From Chloroflexaceae bacterium (GTDB taxonomy: Bacteria > Chloroflexota > Chloroflexia > Chloroflexales > Chloroflexaceae): DNA of 32,798 nucleotides. The number at the start of each line of letters is the position of its first letter. The first letter of the stretch is position 1. The position numbers and the translations under genes are program-made. Where the stretch lies: assembly GCA_028282325.1 (NCBI GenBank), contig JANQID010000015.1, positions 1-32,798 of the forward strand. Reading direction: 5' to 3'. The notes beneath the pieces were generated by a model that had not been told where the DNA came from, searched no databases, and saw only the letters and a program-made list of their open reading frames with translations. Positions 8,759 to 32,798 of this stretch are shown one piece after another.

Positions 8759-9604
8759 ATGATCGATCTTGCGCCGCATAATCCCTATGGTCTGGATCTG
8801 CGCTCGCCGGTGATCGCGGCGGCGGGCGCGCTGGGCTATGGCGTCGAATATGCCCGCCTGCTCGATCTGGGCGCACATACGCCGACCCACGGTCTGGGTG
8901 CGCTGGTAACGCGCACAACAACGCTCTATCCACAGCGAGCGCGTTCGCTGCCCGGCATCATCGAAACGCCCGCCGGACTGCTCTATCACGGCGCAGAGCA
9001 CAATCCCGGCGTGCAGAAAGTGATCGTCCGGTACGCCGGGGCCTGGGCTAGATGGGGCCTGCCGGTCATCATGAGCATTGGCGGCGTCGATGCCACCGAA
9101 TGCGCTGATGTCGCCGCCGCCCTGGAAGGCATTGAGGGCGTGGCAGGCATTGAACTGCGATTGGCAAGCCTCAAAGCGATCCACGCCGAAAGCGCGGCGC
9201 GGGCGGTCGCGGCAGTGCGCGCGGCGACGTTGTTGCCGTTGCTGGTCAAACTGCCACCGGAAGCGCCCGACATCGCCGATCTGGCGCGGGCGGTGGTCGC
9301 GGCGGGCGCCGATGCGTTGGCGCTGATCGATGGTGCGCCCGGCATGGCGCTCGATCCGCAGACGGGCGAACAAGTGCGCGGTCGGGTTTCGGGACCGGCA
9401 GTGCGTCCGCTGGCGTTGGCGCTTACGGCGACGGTCGCGGCGGCAGTGGATGCACCGGTGATCGGCGGCGGTGGAATTTACGACGCCGATGATGCGCGGC
9501 AATTTCTGAGCGCCGGAGCAAGCGCAGTCGGCGTTGGCGCGGCATTGCTGTCCGATCCGCACCGAGCAGCAGTGATCGCGGCGGAACTCGCGGCGTCGGT
9601 GTGA
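8759..9604 (+). CDS. Dihydroorotate dehydrogenase-like FMN-barrel protein, active site altered
   Basis: TIM-barrel protein of the class 1 dihydroorotate dehydrogenase family. Conserved blocks are SPVIAAAGALGYG, ETPAGLLYHGAEHNPGV, LPLLVKLPP, VSGPAVRPLAL and the FMN-phosphate region VIGGGGIYDADDARQFLSAGA. Several expected active-site residues differ. The Lys of TKT is Arg52. The NISCPN strand aligns with RLASLK, so the catalytic Cys is Ser137 and both Asn are lost. The Asn of the INT motif is Asp191. FMN binding is likely to persist, but ordinary dihydroorotate oxidation is doubtful. It follows the MATE gene by 21 bases, away from any visible pyr gene. It may be a paralogue with a new substrate. 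Confidence 0.75.
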   Translation: MIDLAPHNPYGLDLRSPVIAAAGALGYGVEYARLLDLGAHTPTHGLGALVTRTTTLYPQRARSLPGIIETPAGLLYHGAEHNPGVQKVIVRYAGAWARWGLPVIMSIGGVDATECADVAAALEGIEGVAGIELRLASLKAIHAESAARAVAAVRAATLLPLLVKLPPEAPDIADLARAVVAAGADALALIDGAPGMALDPQTGEQVRGRVSGPAVRPLALALTATVAAAVDAPVIGGGGIYDADDARQFLSAGASAVGVGAALLSDPHRAAVIAAELAASV

Positions 9605-9616
9605 TTCGCACAGAGA

Positions 9617-9755
9617 TACCAAACAATATTGGAGACATCGCATGGGGTCATTCTGAGCGCAGCGAAGAATCTCCGATTCCCCCAACGCCGAGCCCCTGCA
9701 CGCTGCCTGCGGCGCCGTTCAGGGTGACATGCGGCATGGGTAGCATCGTTTGGTA
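9617..9755 (-). mobile_element. Dispersed 139-bp palindromic element, copy 1 (MITE-like)
   Basis: Begins TACCAAAC and ends GTTTGGTA. Inside are two inverted submotifs, TCATTCTGAGCGCAGCGAAG on one side and the complement of TGTCACCCTGAACG on the other. It lies just after the dehydrogenase-like gene. Flanking GA on both sides could be a short target duplication. Same length as copy 2 but opposite orientation. Confidence 0.85.
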
Positions 9756-10235
9756 GATACGCAGCCATCCACAATCGCAAATTAAGAGCATACTAACATC
9801 GGAACCGCGGCTGTCGTTTTGCAATCAGCGGCAGCTTCTTGCGTTGGGAGCGGCGGATCAAGTGGTGACGCTTGCCAATGGGCTGGCGAACATTGCCCAG
9901 GCGGCGGGTCTCAAACGCGGCGTGGCGCGCATACACGTTAAATCCTGGCTTAGGCATTTCGGGCCGTCAGATGGCTATCGGCGAAGAAGTCGGCAGCTTG
10001 CGCGCACGCGGTTATCGATGATTGTGCGTGGTGGGCGTAGGATCGGATGGATGGCAAACTGGCATCCATCCAGCGATACGACGGACAACATCGAGCCGGA
10101 TGGGATCGTACACGCGGCGCGGTTCGCCCTGGCAATGCTGCGGCATATCGACAAATGCCCGGCGGTATGAAGGCTCAATTTCTGGGAGGTTTCCAGCTTC
10201 ACGCACTATGCGTTCCATACCGCGATGAGCTGTCA

Positions 10236-17166: not shown

Positions 17167-17679
17167 TCATAGGTTGCCTGCATTCCGGCGCGATGCATAC
17201 ACCTTCACCACATCTGGCGAGGCGGCAAACGGTGCGGCAAGTTCAGTGATAGTGCGATTCAGCGTAGGATGGCGCAGATGCGGCGCAATTTCGGCCAGAG
17301 GCAGCAACACAAAGCCGCGCTCGGCGATGCGCGGATGCGGAATGCTCAGATCGGGCGTATCGATTGTCGCGTCACCGAACAACAGAATATCCAGATCGAT
17401 CAGGCGCGGACCGTAGCGCCGGGTCGGAACGCGCCCCATCGTTTGCTCAATATCCTTCAGGAAGCGCAAGAGCGCAACCGGCTCTAGCGCAGTTACACCT
17501 TCCAGCGCCATATTCAAAAATGACGGCTGGTTGGTGATGTACGCCGGCGCGGTTTCATAGACCGAGGAAAGGCGGACGACCCACACCTCCGTCGCAAGCC
17601 GCCGGATCGCCCGGTCGAGATTCGCCTGGCGTTCGCCCAGATTGGTTCCCAACGCCAGAAAGATTGTTGTTCCAGCCAT
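17167..17679 (-). CDS. folK: 2-amino-4-hydroxy-6-hydroxymethyldihydropteridine diphosphokinase
   Basis: HPPK of folate biosynthesis: transfers pyrophosphate from ATP to 6-hydroxymethyl-7,8-dihydropterin. Motifs present are FLALGTNLGERQANLDRA, the YET loop (SSVYETAPAY), FLNMALEGVT, and the signature RRYGPRLIDLDILLFG with its Mg-binding DxD (ATP and pterin site), followed by HPRIAERGFVLLPLAEIAP. An ATG 33 bases upstream would add eleven residues; the start given matches family proteins, although no clear ribosome binding site is seen for either. First gene of the minus-strand run 17679-13872 and divergent from the broken mobA. It would use the product proposed for the PTPS homologue at 5169-5666. 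Confidence 0.92.
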   Translation of the reverse strand: MAGTTIFLALGTNLGERQANLDRAIRRLATEVWVVRLSSVYETAPAYITNQPSFLNMALEGVTALEPVALLRFLKDIEQTMGRVPTRRYGPRLIDLDILLFGDATIDTPDLSIPHPRIAERGFVLLPLAEIAPHLRHPTLNRTITELAAPFAASPDVVKVYASRRNAGNL

Positions 17680-17767
17680 ATTGCTATCGCAAACAGTTGC
17701 CCATTGCTGCATACCGGCGCTATCATACCACCATTACGCGCGCACAGTTTCTACACGGGGGGCATCA

Positions 17768-18300
17768 ATGCAGCCAATCAGCGGAATCATCGTCGCCGGA
17801 GGTCGCAGCCGACGATTCGGCAGCGACAAGCGTGCTGCGTCTCTGGGGCGACCAAGGACTACCAAACGATGACACCCATGCCGCATGTCACCCTGAACGG
17901 AGCCGCAGGCAGCGTGAAGGGTCGCGGCGTTGGGGGAATCGGAGATTCTTCGCTGCGCTCAGAATGACATTATGCGGTGTCTCCCATATGGTTTGGTAGA
18001 CCGACGTTGCTGGAACATACGCTGGAGGTTATCGCGCCGCTCTGCACCGATGCGGATAACGCGCTGCGCATCGAGCCGCTGCATAGCATCTACGTGCGCA
18101 CGCTGCTGCCGTCGTTGCAGGCGGCGCTCGAACGCGGCGTGCGCCAGGCAACAGCGTTCCTCCGTTCGGCGAGAACGATCATCGTCGAACCGGCTAACAT
18201 TGCTCGCTATGATCCGCATGGTTATGCTTTCATCAACGTCAACACGCCGGACGATCTTGCGCTGGCGCGCCGCATTTTGGATGAGGAGGGGAAAAGGTAG
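17768..18300 (+). pseudogene. mobA: mobA remnant, split by a mobile repeat and internally deleted
   Basis: Molybdenum cofactor guanylyltransferase, which links GMP to molybdopterin. The N-terminal GTP-binding loop is intact (IIVAGGRSRRFGSDK, then AASLGRP, 17777-17856). The 139-bp element then interrupts the frame (17860-17998), and the gene resumes with GRPTLLEHTLEVIAPLC. It next jumps to RIEPLHSIYVRTLLPSLQAAL and finishes FINVNTPDDLALARRIL. Compared with MobA proteins, about 70 residues between VIAPLC and RIEPL are missing, including the acidic DMP motif. Thus at least two lesions exist, and the enzyme should be dead. The ATG is preceded by GGGG. Confidence 0.85.
17860..17998 (+). mobile_element. 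Dispersed 139-bp palindromic element, copy 2, inside mobA
   Basis: Begins TACCAAAC and ends GTTTGGTA, flanked by GAC on both sides (17857-17859 and 17999-18001), a possible 3-bp target duplication. Contains TGTCACCCTGAACGGAGC, and further on ATTCTTCGCTGCGCTCAGAA. Insertion within the coding sequence of mobA shows that this unit has moved. Confidence 0.88.
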
Positions 18301-19476: not shown

Positions 19477-19684
19477 TACCAAACGATCAAAGTTATGCCG
19501 CATGTCACCCTGAGCACCGATGGCCCGGCGGCGGGCCAATGGCGCCGGGAGAAGCTTGAACGCTACACGATAGCGTTCACGTTTCTGAGGAGCAAAGCGA
19601 AGGGGAAGGGTCGCGACCTTGGAGCCAGGGATTCTTCGCTGCGCTCAGAATGACCGCATGCGGCACATCCAATATTGTTTGGTA
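19477..19684 (+). mobile_element. Dispersed palindromic element, copy 3, enlarged to 208 bp
   Basis: Same TACCAAAC and GTTTGGTA ends as the others, with flanking GC on both sides. The middle is enlarged with extra small hairpins (GGCCCGGCGGCGGGCC around 19523, and GAACGCTA with TAGCGTTC around 19565). Shared submotifs are TGTCACCCTGAGC and ATTCTTCGCTGCGCTCAGAA. Confidence 0.82.
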
Positions 19685-19765
19685 GCTGCAGTACATCACA
19701 CGGAAATGCAGTTTATAAACCGCCGTGGATTCTTGCTGGGCATAGATACTCCGCAACAACAGTCC

Positions 19766-28131: not shown

Positions 28132-29544
28132 ATGTTCAGGAACACCATCTTTCTTTTGATCCTAATTACGTTGGCGGCTTGCGCCGCAGCGACACCGACA
28201 ACGAACCAGGCCGCGCCCGCGATGAACCCTGCAAGCCCGTCCGCGTCACCCGCGCCATCCGCAACGCCATCGCCATCAACCGACGCGTCGGCTGCGGTCG
28301 AACCGGCGACAACGCCGAGCTACGCCATCGTCGATACTGGCCAGACCACCTGCTACAACAGTGCTGGCAGAGTGATCGACTGCTCGAACACCGGCAATGT
28401 CATTGGTCAGGACGCCCAGCACACCGGCAATGCGCCGAGCTACACCGATAATGGCGACGGCACCGTCACCGACAACGTCACTGGCCTGATGTGGTCGCAA
28501 AGCCCGGATCTGAACGGCGACGGAACCATCGATGTCAACGACAAGCTGATGTACGACGAGGCTGCCGCCGGGGCAGAGTCGTTCAATCTGGCAGGCTATG
28601 ACGACTGGCGCCTGCCGACGATCAAGGAGCTCTACTCGCTGATTATGTTCACCGGCATTGATCCCAGCGGCTACAACGGCAACGACACGGCGAACCTGAC
28701 GCCCTTCATCAACACCGACTACTTCGACTTCGGCTACGGCGATGTCAGCGCCGGCGAGCGGATCATCGACGCGCAGTTCGCTTCACGCACGATCTATGTC
28801 TCGACCACGATGGGTGGCGCCGAGACGATGTTCGGCGTCAATTTCGCCGACGGACGGATCAAGGGCTATCCGGTCGGGCCGATGCCCGGACAGTCCGAAG
28901 ACAAGGGCTACTACGTTCTCTACGTGCGCGGCGACAGCGCCTACGGCGAGAACAGCCTCGTCGACAATGGCGACGGCACAATCACCGATGACGCCACCGG
29001 CCTGATGTGGACTCAGAACGACAGCGGCGCGGGTATGAATTGGGCAGAAGCGCTGGCCTGGGTTGAGGAGATGAACGCTGCCAACTACCTGGGCCACAAC
29101 GACTGGCGCCTGCCTGACATCAAAGAGCTGCAGAGTCTCGTCGACTACAACCGCTCGCCCGACACGACCAACTCGGCGGCAATCGACCCGTCCTTCAACG
29201 CAACGGCGATCACCAACGAGGCCGGCCAGACCGACTACCCGGTCTACTGGAGCAGCACCACGCACGCGAATATGCAGAACGGGATGAACAGCGCCTATGT
29301 CGCCTTCGGACGGGCAATGGGCTATATGAACGGCGCCTGGATGGATGTTCACGGCGCCGGCGCCCAGCGCAGCGACCCCAAAGCGGGCGACTCCGCCGAC
29401 TACCCTACCGGCCATGGGCCGCAGGGTGATGCTATTCGCATCGACAACTATGTGCGCCTTGTGCGCGATGCAGAGACCTCAGCCGGGCACGATGCGAGGG
29501 AGCAGTACAGCGTCTATGCGCCGCTGATGATGTTCGCCGCATAG
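28132..29544 (+). CDS. DUF1566 (Lcl) domain lipoprotein with two repeats
   Basis: 470 residues. Signal peptide with lipobox LAAC (C17), then a Pro/Ser/Thr/Ala-rich linker (about 20-65). Two DUF1566 units follow. The first has [18 protein letters not shown] and [16 protein letters not shown]; the second has [18 protein letters not shown], then [20 protein letters not shown] and [11 protein letters not shown]. In legionellae and others this domain occurs in surface adhesins (Lcl family). A Ca-binding-like [12 protein letters not shown] lies in the first unit. GGAG lies close upstream of the ATG. Role in attachment is inferred only. Confidence 0.85.
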
Positions 29545-29560
29545 CGTGATCGCGGATCGG

Positions 29561-29694
29561 TACCAAACAATATTGGAGACACCGCATGCGGTCATTCTGA
29601 GCGCAGCGAAGAACCTCGGACTCCAATCGAGGCCCTTCCCTCCGCCTGCGGCTCCGTTCAGGGTGACATGCAGCATACGCATCATCGTTTGGCA
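29561..29694 (-). mobile_element. Dispersed palindromic element, copy 4
   Basis: Begins TACCAAAC and ends GTTTGGCA, 134 bp, just after the DUF1566 lipoprotein, with GG flanking both ends. It has TCATTCTGAGCGCAGCGAAG on this strand as in copy 1, so it is in the same orientation as copy 1. Confidence 0.82.
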
Positions 29695-29709
29695 GGTTCG
29701 GCAACTTCT

Positions 29710-29736
29710 GAGTGCGGGAGCCAGGCTCCCGCACTC
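29710..29736. repeat. 13-bp palindrome with one-base centre
   Basis: GAGTGCGGGAGCC, then A, then its exact complement (29710-29736). A partial extra copy of the right arm follows at about 29740-29756. Located between the dispersed element and the integrase remnant. Confidence 0.8.
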
Positions 29737-29831
29737 TTGGCACTCTGGCTCCCGCAAAGGAATCAAGCCGTATAGTGCGTAGGCGAGCGCCGTATCGAAC
29801 CGGCGGACTGGTCTGCCTGCTGGGGAAGTTC

Positions 29832-30362
29832 TTTCACGTATGGTCATCTGGCGGCGCGGGAAATCGAAATCTTTCACCCGCAGACGCAGGCACTCGAGGA
29901 GGCGTAGGCCGCTGCCATAGAGCAGCCGGGTCATCAACAGGCGCGGGCCCCGTGCAAGTGTTTCAGCATCGCGCGAACCTCTGCCCGGGTGAAGACGGCC
30001 GGCAAGCGCCGAGGCGTGCGAGCCGCCCGCACGGCCTCCAGCACATCGACCGGCAGCTCAAGGACGTAGCGATAGAGGGAGAGGGTGGCACTGCAGGTCT
30101 GGTTCTGGGTCGCCGCCGCAACGTGTTGTTCGACGGCGAGGTGGATCAGAAAGGCCTCGATTTCCGGGCAGCCCATTTCACGAGGATGGCGCTTGTGGTG
30201 AGACAGGATAAAGCGTTTCATCCAGTGCACGTAGGCTTCTTCGGTACGGATGGCATAGTGCTGAACACGCAGGGCTTGCCGAACCTGGTCGAGGAGTTTT
30301 GGTGTCTGGGATGCCAGAATAGAGAGCTCCGTGAGTACGTACAGGACGCTGAATTGGAACAT
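29832..30362 (-). pseudogene. Integron-type integrase remnant (intI-like), frameshifted and truncated
   Basis: Tyrosine recombinase related to integron integrases. The core-binding domain is intact: PKLLDQVRQALRVQHYAIRT, then EEAYVHWMKRFILSHHKRHP and AVEQHVAAATQNQ with SLYRYVLEL, up to [14 protein letters not shown]. The frame breaks near 29937-29945, and the next piece, [18 protein letters not shown] followed by [16 protein letters not shown], is read in another frame. It contains only the first catalytic Arg (GLR). Homology ends at about 29832, so the other catalytic residues and the IntI-specific patch are absent. Inactive. Its 5' end faces the cassette region, as expected of an integron. 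Confidence 0.75.
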
Positions 30363-30529
30363 AGGTTCTATTGTGACAGGACTTGACTATGCAGTCCAGC
30401 GGGAGTAGAATCAGCGAGTGTTTATCTGGAAGTTTCCGTATAAATGTTTATGTGGAAAGATCTGTCTAATAGTGGACGGAACAAAGGAACCTGAGTTTCG
30501 TGACTATCCGTCTGGAAGGAGTGTCATAC

Positions 30530-31300
30530 ATGCTGTCAATTACTGTCTGGGCCGGACTGATAATATTTTTCGTGGGGACATTCGGCCTTATTACTGGAAT
30601 CGTCGGAATCTCCAAGTCCGTCGTCCTCACCGTGGTGGGCACCGTCGCTTGGACATGGGGTGTGTTCTGGTTTGGCTACTTCAAGGACGTCACACGTCCA
30701 TCGGCGCCTGCCGAACGGGCTGGCCAGCTTCCAACCGCCTTAGCGCTGGCATTTGAGGACGCCACGCCGGCCGCCGTCCGGAGAGCAGGCAAGTTAGTGC
30801 CGGGCAAAGCGAATGAAGAGATAGCTGCGTGGCTCCGCGCCAATGCCAGCCTTTTCGATCGGATACTGACTCAAGAAGCGATTATGGTCGCGCTCTTCGG
30901 TGCTGATGCTAGGGACGGAACGTCTATTAATGGTACGCCTGTCTACCGTATGCATAGGCACGATGGAAAAATTAATATCCGCACACTTGAGAGTCTTTCT
31001 TGTGCGTTGCGACGATTGAAAACGCCCAACCAAGGCTCCAAACCGCTATTAGTCCTGGTCGCCCACGACAAGCAGTACGAAAGGGCGAGAGAAGACCTTG
31101 AGTGGCTGGAGGCATCCATTGTCGAGTCAGCGGTGCCGAAGATGACTCAGTACAAGACAAATAATGTGCTTGAGCCCTACTGGTGGGCGCGGCGCGAACT
31201 GTTCTTCGCCAGGCCGATTGAGTTCTTACAGCGGCGCTTTCTATCGCCCGCCGGGGGATGTTGTCGAACAACCATATGTTTGGAAACGATCAGACGTTAA
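30530..31300 (+). CDS. Two-helix membrane protein of unknown function, likely frameshifted near its end
   Basis: No family recognised. Two N-terminal transmembrane helices (about 3-24 and 27-47: ITVWAGLIIFFVGTFGLI and VVLTVVGTVAWTWGVFWFGY) precede a soluble domain of about 200 residues containing PLLVLVAHDKQYERAREDLE. GGAAGGAG (30514-30521) eight bases before the ATG fixes the start. The last 20 residues (RRFLSPAGGCCRTT) look spurious. From about 31225 the +1-shifted frame reads AFYRPPGDVVEQPYVWKRSD, then VKSLKVEPW, and runs into the first attC, which argues for a frameshift or assembly error. It sits between the integrase remnant and the first attC and is probably cassette-borne, but its 5' junction was not found. 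Confidence 0.55.
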   Translation: MLSITVWAGLIIFFVGTFGLITGIVGISKSVVLTVVGTVAWTWGVFWFGYFKDVTRPSAPAERAGQLPTALALAFEDATPAAVRRAGKLVPGKANEEIAAWLRANASLFDRILTQEAIMVALFGADARDGTSINGTPVYRMHRHDGKINIRTLESLSCALRRLKTPNQGSKPLLVLVAHDKQYERAREDLEWLEASIVESAVPKMTQYKTNNVLEPYWWARRELFFARPIEFLQRRFLSPAGGCCRTTICLETIRR

Positions 31301-31324
31301 GAGTCTCAAAGTTGAGCCATGGCC

Positions 31325-31404
31325 ACCCAACCCATCATTCCAGCGGACGGCGTGGGATTCCGCTTCGCTCCAGCCCACACCGCGCGCTGAATTCGTCGTT
31401 ATCC
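31325..31404 (+). other. Integron attC recombination site 1
   Basis: About 80 bp. R'' box ACCCAAC (31325-31331, fits RYYYAAC) and R' box GTTATCC (31398-31404, a GTTRRRY-like core with one deviation). Between them, CATTCCAGCGG and CGCTGAATTCG pair with an unpaired base, and inner arms GGCGTGGG and CCCACACC close a loop. The sequence CATCATTCCAGCGGAC is typical of attC sites. Cassette recombination occurs at G^TT. Confidence 0.8.
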
Positions 31405-32202
31405 TACAATACCCCTAAGGAATCGAATTTATATGTTTTCAAAATCAGCTGCACTTTATGATAGAATTTATGGCTCATTTAAAGACTACTCAAGTGAATG
31501 CCGAAGCATACATTCTTTAATTCAAAATGAGCACAGGAATGCGCAGACTCTTCTGGATGTAGCTTGTGGAACTGGAGAGCATGCTCGCATTTTAAGAAAT
31601 CAATATGAATATGACGTAGACGGTATTGATCTAGACGATGATTTGATATCTATCGCAATAAGCAAAAATCCTTTTGGTACTTTTCATCGGTGCGATATGA
31701 TTGATTTTGATCTTGGAAAAAATTTGATGTGGTTATGTGTCTATTCAGTTCTATTGGATATGTGAAAACCTTAGAAAATGTTGCTGCAAGTTTAAGGCGA
31801 TTTAGGGAACATCTTAAAGATGACGGAATTATTATTGTTGAACCATGGTTCCCACCTGGAAATCTAACAACGGGAAAGATTTTTCTTAATACTTTGGAAA
31901 ATGAGGAACTATCAGTCGCTAGAATGGCTTACAATGAGGTAAACGACCGAATATCAACTCTTCGCTTCGAATACTTAATTGGAGTTTCAGGCAAAATTAC
32001 TCATGAGGTAGAGTCTCATGAACTTGGGCTTTTCACAATAGATGAAATGAAAGACTGTTTTCATAGTGTAGGATTGAAAGTTGAATATGATCATGAAGGG
32101 CTTTCAGGTAGAGGATTGTATATTTCAAAAATCGGATAACATTTACATTCAGAGCGAATTCACCCGCCGCTGGCGCTCTGGGTGAATCGCCTGATGCCAG
32201 TG
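31399..32202 (+). mobile_element. Integron gene cassette carrying a methyltransferase
   Basis: Bounded by the G^TT of attC 1 and of attC 2. The first bases GTTATCC (31398-31404) are exactly complementary to the R'' box GGATAAC (32134-32140), as required if the cassette once closed into a circle. Much more AT-rich than the flanking host genes. Confidence 0.8.
31433..32139 (+). pseudogene. SAM-dependent methyltransferase (DesVI/TylM1-like), -1 frameshift at A6
   Basis: Class I methyltransferase related to dTDP-aminodeoxysugar N,N-dimethyltransferases (DesVI, TylM1). N-terminal part FSKSAALYDRIYGSF, then LLDVACGTGEHARIL (SAM motif I) and HRCDMIDFDLG. C-terminal part LFSSIGYVKTLENVAASL, then IIIVEPWFPPG, ARMAYNEVNDR, HELGLFTIDEM and EGLSGRGLYISK. 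The two parts lie in different frames, joined at the A run 31717-31722. Reading back one base there gives GKKFDVVMCLFSS, exactly the family pattern. The zero-frame heptamer is A AAA AAT, a possible slippery site, so a programmed -1 shift, a mutation or a homopolymer sequencing error are all possible. AAGGA lies upstream of the ATG. Confidence 0.75.
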
Positions 32203-32208
32203 TTAGAC
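32134..32208 (+). other. Integron attC recombination site 2
   Basis: About 75 bp. R'' box GGATAAC (32134-32140) overlaps the methyltransferase stop codon, and R' box is GTTAGAC (32202-32208), a perfect GTTRRRY. Inner arms ATTCACCC and GGGTGAAT form the stem; outer pairing is imperfect, as is usual for attC. Confidence 0.8.
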
Positions 32209-32678
32209 CCTGGAAATAGGAAGATTATATGTCAGTTGAAAAGAATAAAAAACTCATTCGAAGTTATATTGAAGAAGTGATAAACACAGGAAACGTTGAA
32301 TTAATGGAAAAATTCATTTCTCCAAACTATGTTGAAGTTCATGAAGGCAAGCGGTATGAGGTTGGGATACAGGGTGCAAAAGATCATATAGTTGGAGTAC
32401 GTGAAACATACCCGGATTTGACACTTACTGTTGATCAACAGATTGCTGAAGGGGATTGGGTTGCGACATGTATTACTGCTAAAGGTACCCACAAAGGTTC
32501 TTGGTTAGGGATGAAACCGACTGGCAAACAAGTTTCCTTTACTGGAGTTAACATAGAAAAAATTGAAAATGGAAAAATAACTGAACATGGTGGAGCTGCA
32601 AATCTTTTACTTCAGTTGCTTGAAATCGGTGCGATTCAAATTGTTGGTGAATAGTTAATCAGGATGATATGGTCTAAC
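32203..32678 (+). mobile_element. Second complete cassette body (SnoaL-like gene)
   Basis: Starts at G^TTAGACC of attC 2 (32202-32209). Its first eight bases are exactly complementary to GGTCTAAC at 32671-32678, the R'' box of the following attC. AT-rich like the previous cassette. Its right boundary is not in the window. Confidence 0.75.
32229..32654 (+). CDS. SnoaL-like / ester cyclase family protein (NTF2-like fold)
   Basis: 141 residues. N-terminus NKKLIRSYIEEVINTGNVELMEKFISPNYVEV is typical of the SnoaL/NTF2-like superfamily, as are GAKDHIVGVRETYPDLTLTV (helix and strand) and the C-terminal VSFTGVNIEKIENGKITEHGG. Members include polyketide cyclases and many proteins of unknown role with a small ligand cavity. 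It is the sole gene of its cassette. A TAGGAAG lies upstream of the ATG. Substrate unknown. Pairing with the upstream sugar-methyltransferase-like gene might suggest natural-product relevance, but cassettes assort independently, so this is weak. Confidence 0.78.
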   Translation: MSVEKNKKLIRSYIEEVINTGNVELMEKFISPNYVEVHEGKRYEVGIQGAKDHIVGVRETYPDLTLTVDQQIAEGDWVATCITAKGTHKGSWLGMKPTGKQVSFTGVNIEKIENGKITEHGGAANLLLQLLEIGAIQIVGE

Positions 32679-32710
32679 CAAGGCATCCACCGGGCGCTTA
32701 TTATGCTTGG
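32671..32710 (+). other. Partial attC site 3 (5' half)
   Basis: R'' box GTCTAAC (32672-32678, perfect RYYYAAC), followed by CCAAGGCAT, which pairs with ATGCTTGG (32703-32710) with one unpaired G. The expected GTTRRRY at the inner end is replaced by GCCCCTT. The R' partner is either degenerate or beyond the window end. Confidence 0.55.
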
Positions 32711-32798
32711 CCCCTTTGTCAAGACCACGAAAGCGCGAACCGAAGCAATCATGTGTCAAGCGTTTTGTCGGCGTGGGCCGCGCGTGTGGTGCGGGCCC

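Follow-up and report, generated by a model that had tools for sequence, protein, structure and literature searches.

The gene and its two frames

A methyltransferase gene near one end of a Chloroflexaceae contig (31433-32139, + strand) is encoded in two frames that meet at a run of six As, and the question raised by this locus is whether the gene is recoded, recently broken or misread; all coordinates refer to the window, i.e. the whole 32,798-nt stretch of DNA that was analysed. The zero-frame ORF (31433-31765, +, 110 aa) extends from an ATG at 31433 to a stop at 31763-31765, its last 13 residues being out-of-frame, and encodes the N half of a predicted class I SAM methyltransferase, with the SAM-binding motif DVACGTGEH and core strands 1-3. 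The C half, from strand 4 on (31723-32139, +; FDVVMCLFSSIGY...GRGLYISKIG), lies in the -1 frame, which is open from 31711 to a stop at 32137-32139, the closest in-frame stop on the 5' side being at 31708. Both frames are open at 31711-31765, and the frame change falls within this overlap. Reading through the 707-nt gene gives a protein of 235 residues that has the same residue count across the joint as its relatives and retains 25 of the 26 columns invariant among 15 of them. The halves are encoded in a single frame across the joint in 17 of 17 relatives that possess both, which together with the ORFs confirms the earlier view of this region as complementary halves of one methyltransferase, well conserved apart from the joint. 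The gene has a G+C content of 35.5%, compared to 58.1% for the window. At 31604-31615, a two-residue insertion (YEYD) relative to the aligned relatives resembles a six-base near-repeat, TATGAATATGAC.

The N half scores above the Pfam cut-offs for Methyltransf_25 and Methyltransf_11 (PF13649, PF08241), while searches of Pfam and NCBIfam at E 0.001 yielded no family for the C half. Among solved structures, the C half comes closest to two dTDP-aminosugar N,N-dimethyltransferases, 3pfg (E 5e-24) and 3bxo (E 1e-20), which we take to be enzymes of the TylM1/DesVI type. The same two structures are matched by the nearest intact relative, L006, with E-values of 5e-47 (residues 6-231) and 7e-45, respectively. 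By homology, then, the gene is predicted to encode a class I methyltransferase akin to the dTDP-aminosugar N-methyltransferases, in agreement with its previous description as DesVI-like. In a structural model of L006 (pLDDT 94), the joint maps to the start of strand E96-101, presumably the fourth core strand judging by its order. With the joint at this position, the zero-frame product would retain the SAM motif, while its core would stop after the first half.

The A6 run and the site in relatives

The A6 run at the frame change (31717-31722, +), followed by TTT, is the only homopolymer of at least 6 nt in the gene as well as its longest. The zero frame reads the heptamer A_AAA_AAT (31717-31723) in slip register, as had been pointed out, and a second, overlapping heptamer that the earlier note had missed, A_AAT_TTG (31720-31726), is likewise in slip register. 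The peptide GKKFDVV was said to be restored by such a slip; a -1 slip after decoding of the heptamer would instead yield GKNFDVV, and GKKFDVV requires a message with one extra A. Because the break coincides with the single longest homopolymer of the gene, its placement there by chance is unlikely; the position itself fits mutation, read error and slippage equally well. Comparison with relatives suggests GGA AAA AAA TTT as the most likely ancestral string, of which the codons AAA AAA TTT are now read as AAA AAT TTG. Since loss of one A from AAA AAA TTT creates the heptamer automatically, its presence is not independent evidence for recoding.

Conservation of the site was scored at the 17 places for which a fetched locus holds both halves; lower-scoring matches in the phylum that lack a fetched locus, and plasmid matches, fall outside this count. 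Two related loci (L012 and L015), single-frame at the joint, represent one place and were counted once. Two others were left out, one from the same family with only the C half, located behind a different ORF (L008), the other distant, with N-half and C-half matches in different frames (L013). The heptamer occurs in slip register in 0 of the 17 relatives, so that the search for the same A run in related genes, proposed as a check, went against a conserved site. L006 has six As in another register (CGT AAA AAA TAT, i.e. AAA AAA T) and L043 reads AAT AAG AAA TTT; the remaining relatives have no such A run at the joint. L006, with a C-half identity of about 55%, was the one match in the genome contigs searched. 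Matches to the C half were found in 7 of 200 related genomes and 29 of 400 from the phylum, both tallies including the window's own genome, and in 25 plasmid records, every one at less than 60% identity. Plasmids yielded no close DNA relative, and the phages and viral contigs searched yielded no relative of the C half. The relative represented by L012/L015 (G139:C227) is frameshifted elsewhere, within the C half. Within the same family, one genome (L055, G007:C882, 1657-2058, - strand) has a relative reduced to the C half, beginning near the same residue and directly 3' of a different ORF.

A gene cassette beside a degraded integrase

The methyltransferase gene occupies an 804-bp cassette (31399-32202, +), which starts at the T following the G of GTTATCC (31398-31404) and extends through the first G of GTTAGAC (32202-32208). 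Its 5' GTTATCC (31398) and its own R'' box GGATAAC (32134) are perfectly reverse-complementary, its attC (32134-32208, +) folds into a hairpin with z-scores of -3.0 and -3.5 (0 of 200 shuffles as good), and the cassette taken as a closed circle folds into one long hairpin. The exactly complementary cassette ends and the attC hairpin uphold the claim that the gene is cassette-borne. The next cassette encodes an intact SnoaL-like protein of 141 aa (32229-32654, +), and its 5' box GTTAGAC (32202) is complementary to its 3' box GTCTAAC (32672). Each of the box motifs of the two cassettes is unique within the last 3.5 kb. An attC-like site (31325-31404, +) on the 5' side of the methyltransferase cassette shows the R''/R' pattern with a hairpin z-score of just -0.4 to -0.6. 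Complementary ends were not found for the segment 5' of this first site, nor in any of 16 methyltransferase relatives, and contig C10 gave only scattered matches under the same rule.

The features that characterise an integron cassette, complementary own boxes, an attC hairpin and a neighbouring integrase, are thus all present here, the integrase being frameshifted and half missing. The intI pseudogene (29833-30317, - strand) can be aligned to IntI residues 11-133 and, beyond a frame change around 29949, to residues 133-171; the remaining half is absent. Elsewhere in the genome, contig C10 encodes one complete integrase (496.8 bits, cut-off 265), and contigs C130 and C16 carry two more intI remnants. 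Such pseudogenes are common in integrons, amounting to nearly one third of the intI genes surveyed in PMC2426708. An ORF of unknown family (30500-31300, +, 266 aa) separates the intI remnant from the first of the attC-like sites. Within 30500-31418, this ORF may pass at around 31240 to the 31164-31418 frame, a segment for which searches returned weak matches only. A dispersed repeat whose translation contains 'CHPERSRR' was found at 29479-29760, 9478-9780, 17664-17999 and 19557-19700; a search with the ORF at 29479-29937 gave 107 genome matches, most of them to this repeat part.

Beyond the SnoaL cassette the array breaks off: the third attC is interrupted by one end of an IS3-type insertion sequence (32704-32798, +), with which the contig also ends. 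This IS end is present at four places in the genome, one of which (contig C103) has orfA/orfB with a nine-A run near the end of orfA; the IS3 family name is our assumption from this orfA/orfB layout.

Recoding, split enzyme, assembly error or base loss

Recoding would imply that a -1 ribosomal slip at A_AAA_AAT or A_AAT_TTG, or transcriptional slippage, yields some full-length enzyme. The locus does have two in-register heptamers of the X_XXY_YYZ form in the frame overlap, as expected for a programmed -1 shift, as well as a weak hairpin (-9.1 kcal/mol) starting a few nt 3' of the site, and in E. coli 39 of 64 X_XXZ_ZZN heptamers (61%) are measurably shift-prone without a stimulator, as reported in PMC4066793. 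The same report, however, ranks heptamers with a mixed ZZN end codon such as AAU as a weaker class than homogeneous ones, and neither of the stimulators suggested for inspection, an internal Shine-Dalgarno sequence or a stem-loop, was detected at the site. There is no SD-like motif within 30 nt on its 5' side, and the downstream hairpin does not stand out from synonymous shuffles, 16% of which equal or beat it (p 0.16); for a longer downstream fold the figure is 30% (p 0.30). Relative to dinucleotide shuffles, downstream structure has z-scores of -0.1 to -1.6, and the first pairs of the hairpin fail the G-C-plus-three rule of PMC4066793. A programmed shift would further be expected to show a conserved site and layout, whereas the relatives with both halves are uniformly single-frame. 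As for slippage during transcription, it is typical in bacteria from nine As on, with selection against it typically visible at nine, although shorter runs may slip in some bacteria, according to PMC1088944; the gene has six As against this length of about nine A or T or more, and against the 11 of the tssM rescue (PMC4256274). Recoding is thus unsupported by anything found here, and we consider it very unlikely. It would be at least as improbable that low-level -1 slip at A_AAA_AAT_TTG, as an accidental and not an evolved site, preserves some function of a newly frameshifted cassette gene. An enzyme of two separate polypeptides, its C half made from its own start at GTG 31729 or ATG 31735, could draw on these in-frame codons just past the joint; either start, however, drops part of core strand 4, at or inside which the split falls, and the halves are fused in all 17 relatives, making such an arrangement extremely improbable.

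A read or assembly error, with one more A in the true sequence and an intact gene, is a more serious contender, which we nevertheless regard as on balance unlikely. The shift lies exactly within a homopolymer, all else in both halves is intact, the gene is close to a contig end formed by a repeated IS, and singletons with homology support are expected to be mostly sequencing errors, as stated in PMC3711429. Against this speaks a sample of the same assembly, 20 chosen stretches from 20 contigs (391,961 of 4,617,442 bases): ORFs no shorter than 150 aa contain, away from their ends, 58 homopolymers of at least 6 nt, and 38 of these are A6 or T6; another 39 runs lie elsewhere. The sampled coding fraction is 0.895 and the median kept ORF 289 aa. 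Only two same-strand ORF junctions have a run of at least 6 nt nearby, and neither shows a protein family split across the run: one joins a gas vesicle protein to GvpL/F, the other a family-less ORF to a complete valyl-tRNA synthetase-like protein, leaving a little room for a split at the latter. With detection limited to cases where both halves have at least 80 aa, no homopolymer-split gene was recognised in the 391,961 sampled bases, which together with the 58 intact in-gene runs argues that the assembly is not generally homopolymer-prone. The missing half of the neighbouring intI, moreover, is inexplicable as a homopolymer read error, and this adjacent decay, taken with the intact sampled runs, makes a real one-base deletion likelier than a read error.

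The cassette methyltransferase was probably broken recently by such a real deletion in the A run, inside a decaying integron. Replication slippage at the run would have removed one nucleotide from the gene, after which translation would proceed out of frame at the start of core strand 4 and meet a stop 14 codons on. A product with the SAM motif and without half of the Rossmann core suggests a null allele, and with the two halves otherwise undamaged the loss is presumably recent. The setting is that of an integron whose own integrase is frameshifted and truncated. This intI remnant speaks for the explanation, as do the two others in the genome; the intact adjoining SnoaL cassette and the two-residue insertion, unseen in the aligned relatives, count against it. 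The four explanations previously left side by side can therefore be ranked in part: young mutation is favoured over read error, and both programmed shift and transcriptional slippage recede in the face of 0 of 17 conserved sites, the lack of a stimulator and a run of six bases. In sum, the case is an ordinary one, either of a cassette gene broken not long ago or of one affected by an assembly error.

Comparison with known systems

The locus means little past annotation, yet it offers a tidy example of how base loss from a Lys-Lys codon pair makes a slip-like heptamer automatically, so that the motif alone is no evidence of recoding. It also illustrates cassette decay beside a dead integrase despite an intact integrase gene elsewhere in the same genome. 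Enzymes of the TylM1/DesVI type have the same length and core as the methyltransferase read-through; here, by contrast, the gene is split, its neighbour is SnoaL-like, and no amino-sugar pathway genes were recognised beside it. The -1 frameshifting of IS3-family transposases likewise involves two overlapping frames in -1 relation at an A run. The IS3-type element on contig C103 of this genome, whose layout we take to be typical for its family, has a nine-A run at the end of orfA as opposed to the six As of the cassette gene, and the cassette gene is without relatives of the same layout. In tssM1 of Citrobacter rodentium, a gene is likewise interrupted near a poly-A tract, which there comprises 11 As with transcriptional slippage proven, as described in PMC4256274, whereas the methyltransferase gene has six As. 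The frameshift pseudogenes of chromosomal integrons are comparable in that a gene is shifted by one base in an integron whose integrase is degraded; in the present case the gene affected is at the same time cassette-borne, and an intact integrase is encoded elsewhere in the genome.
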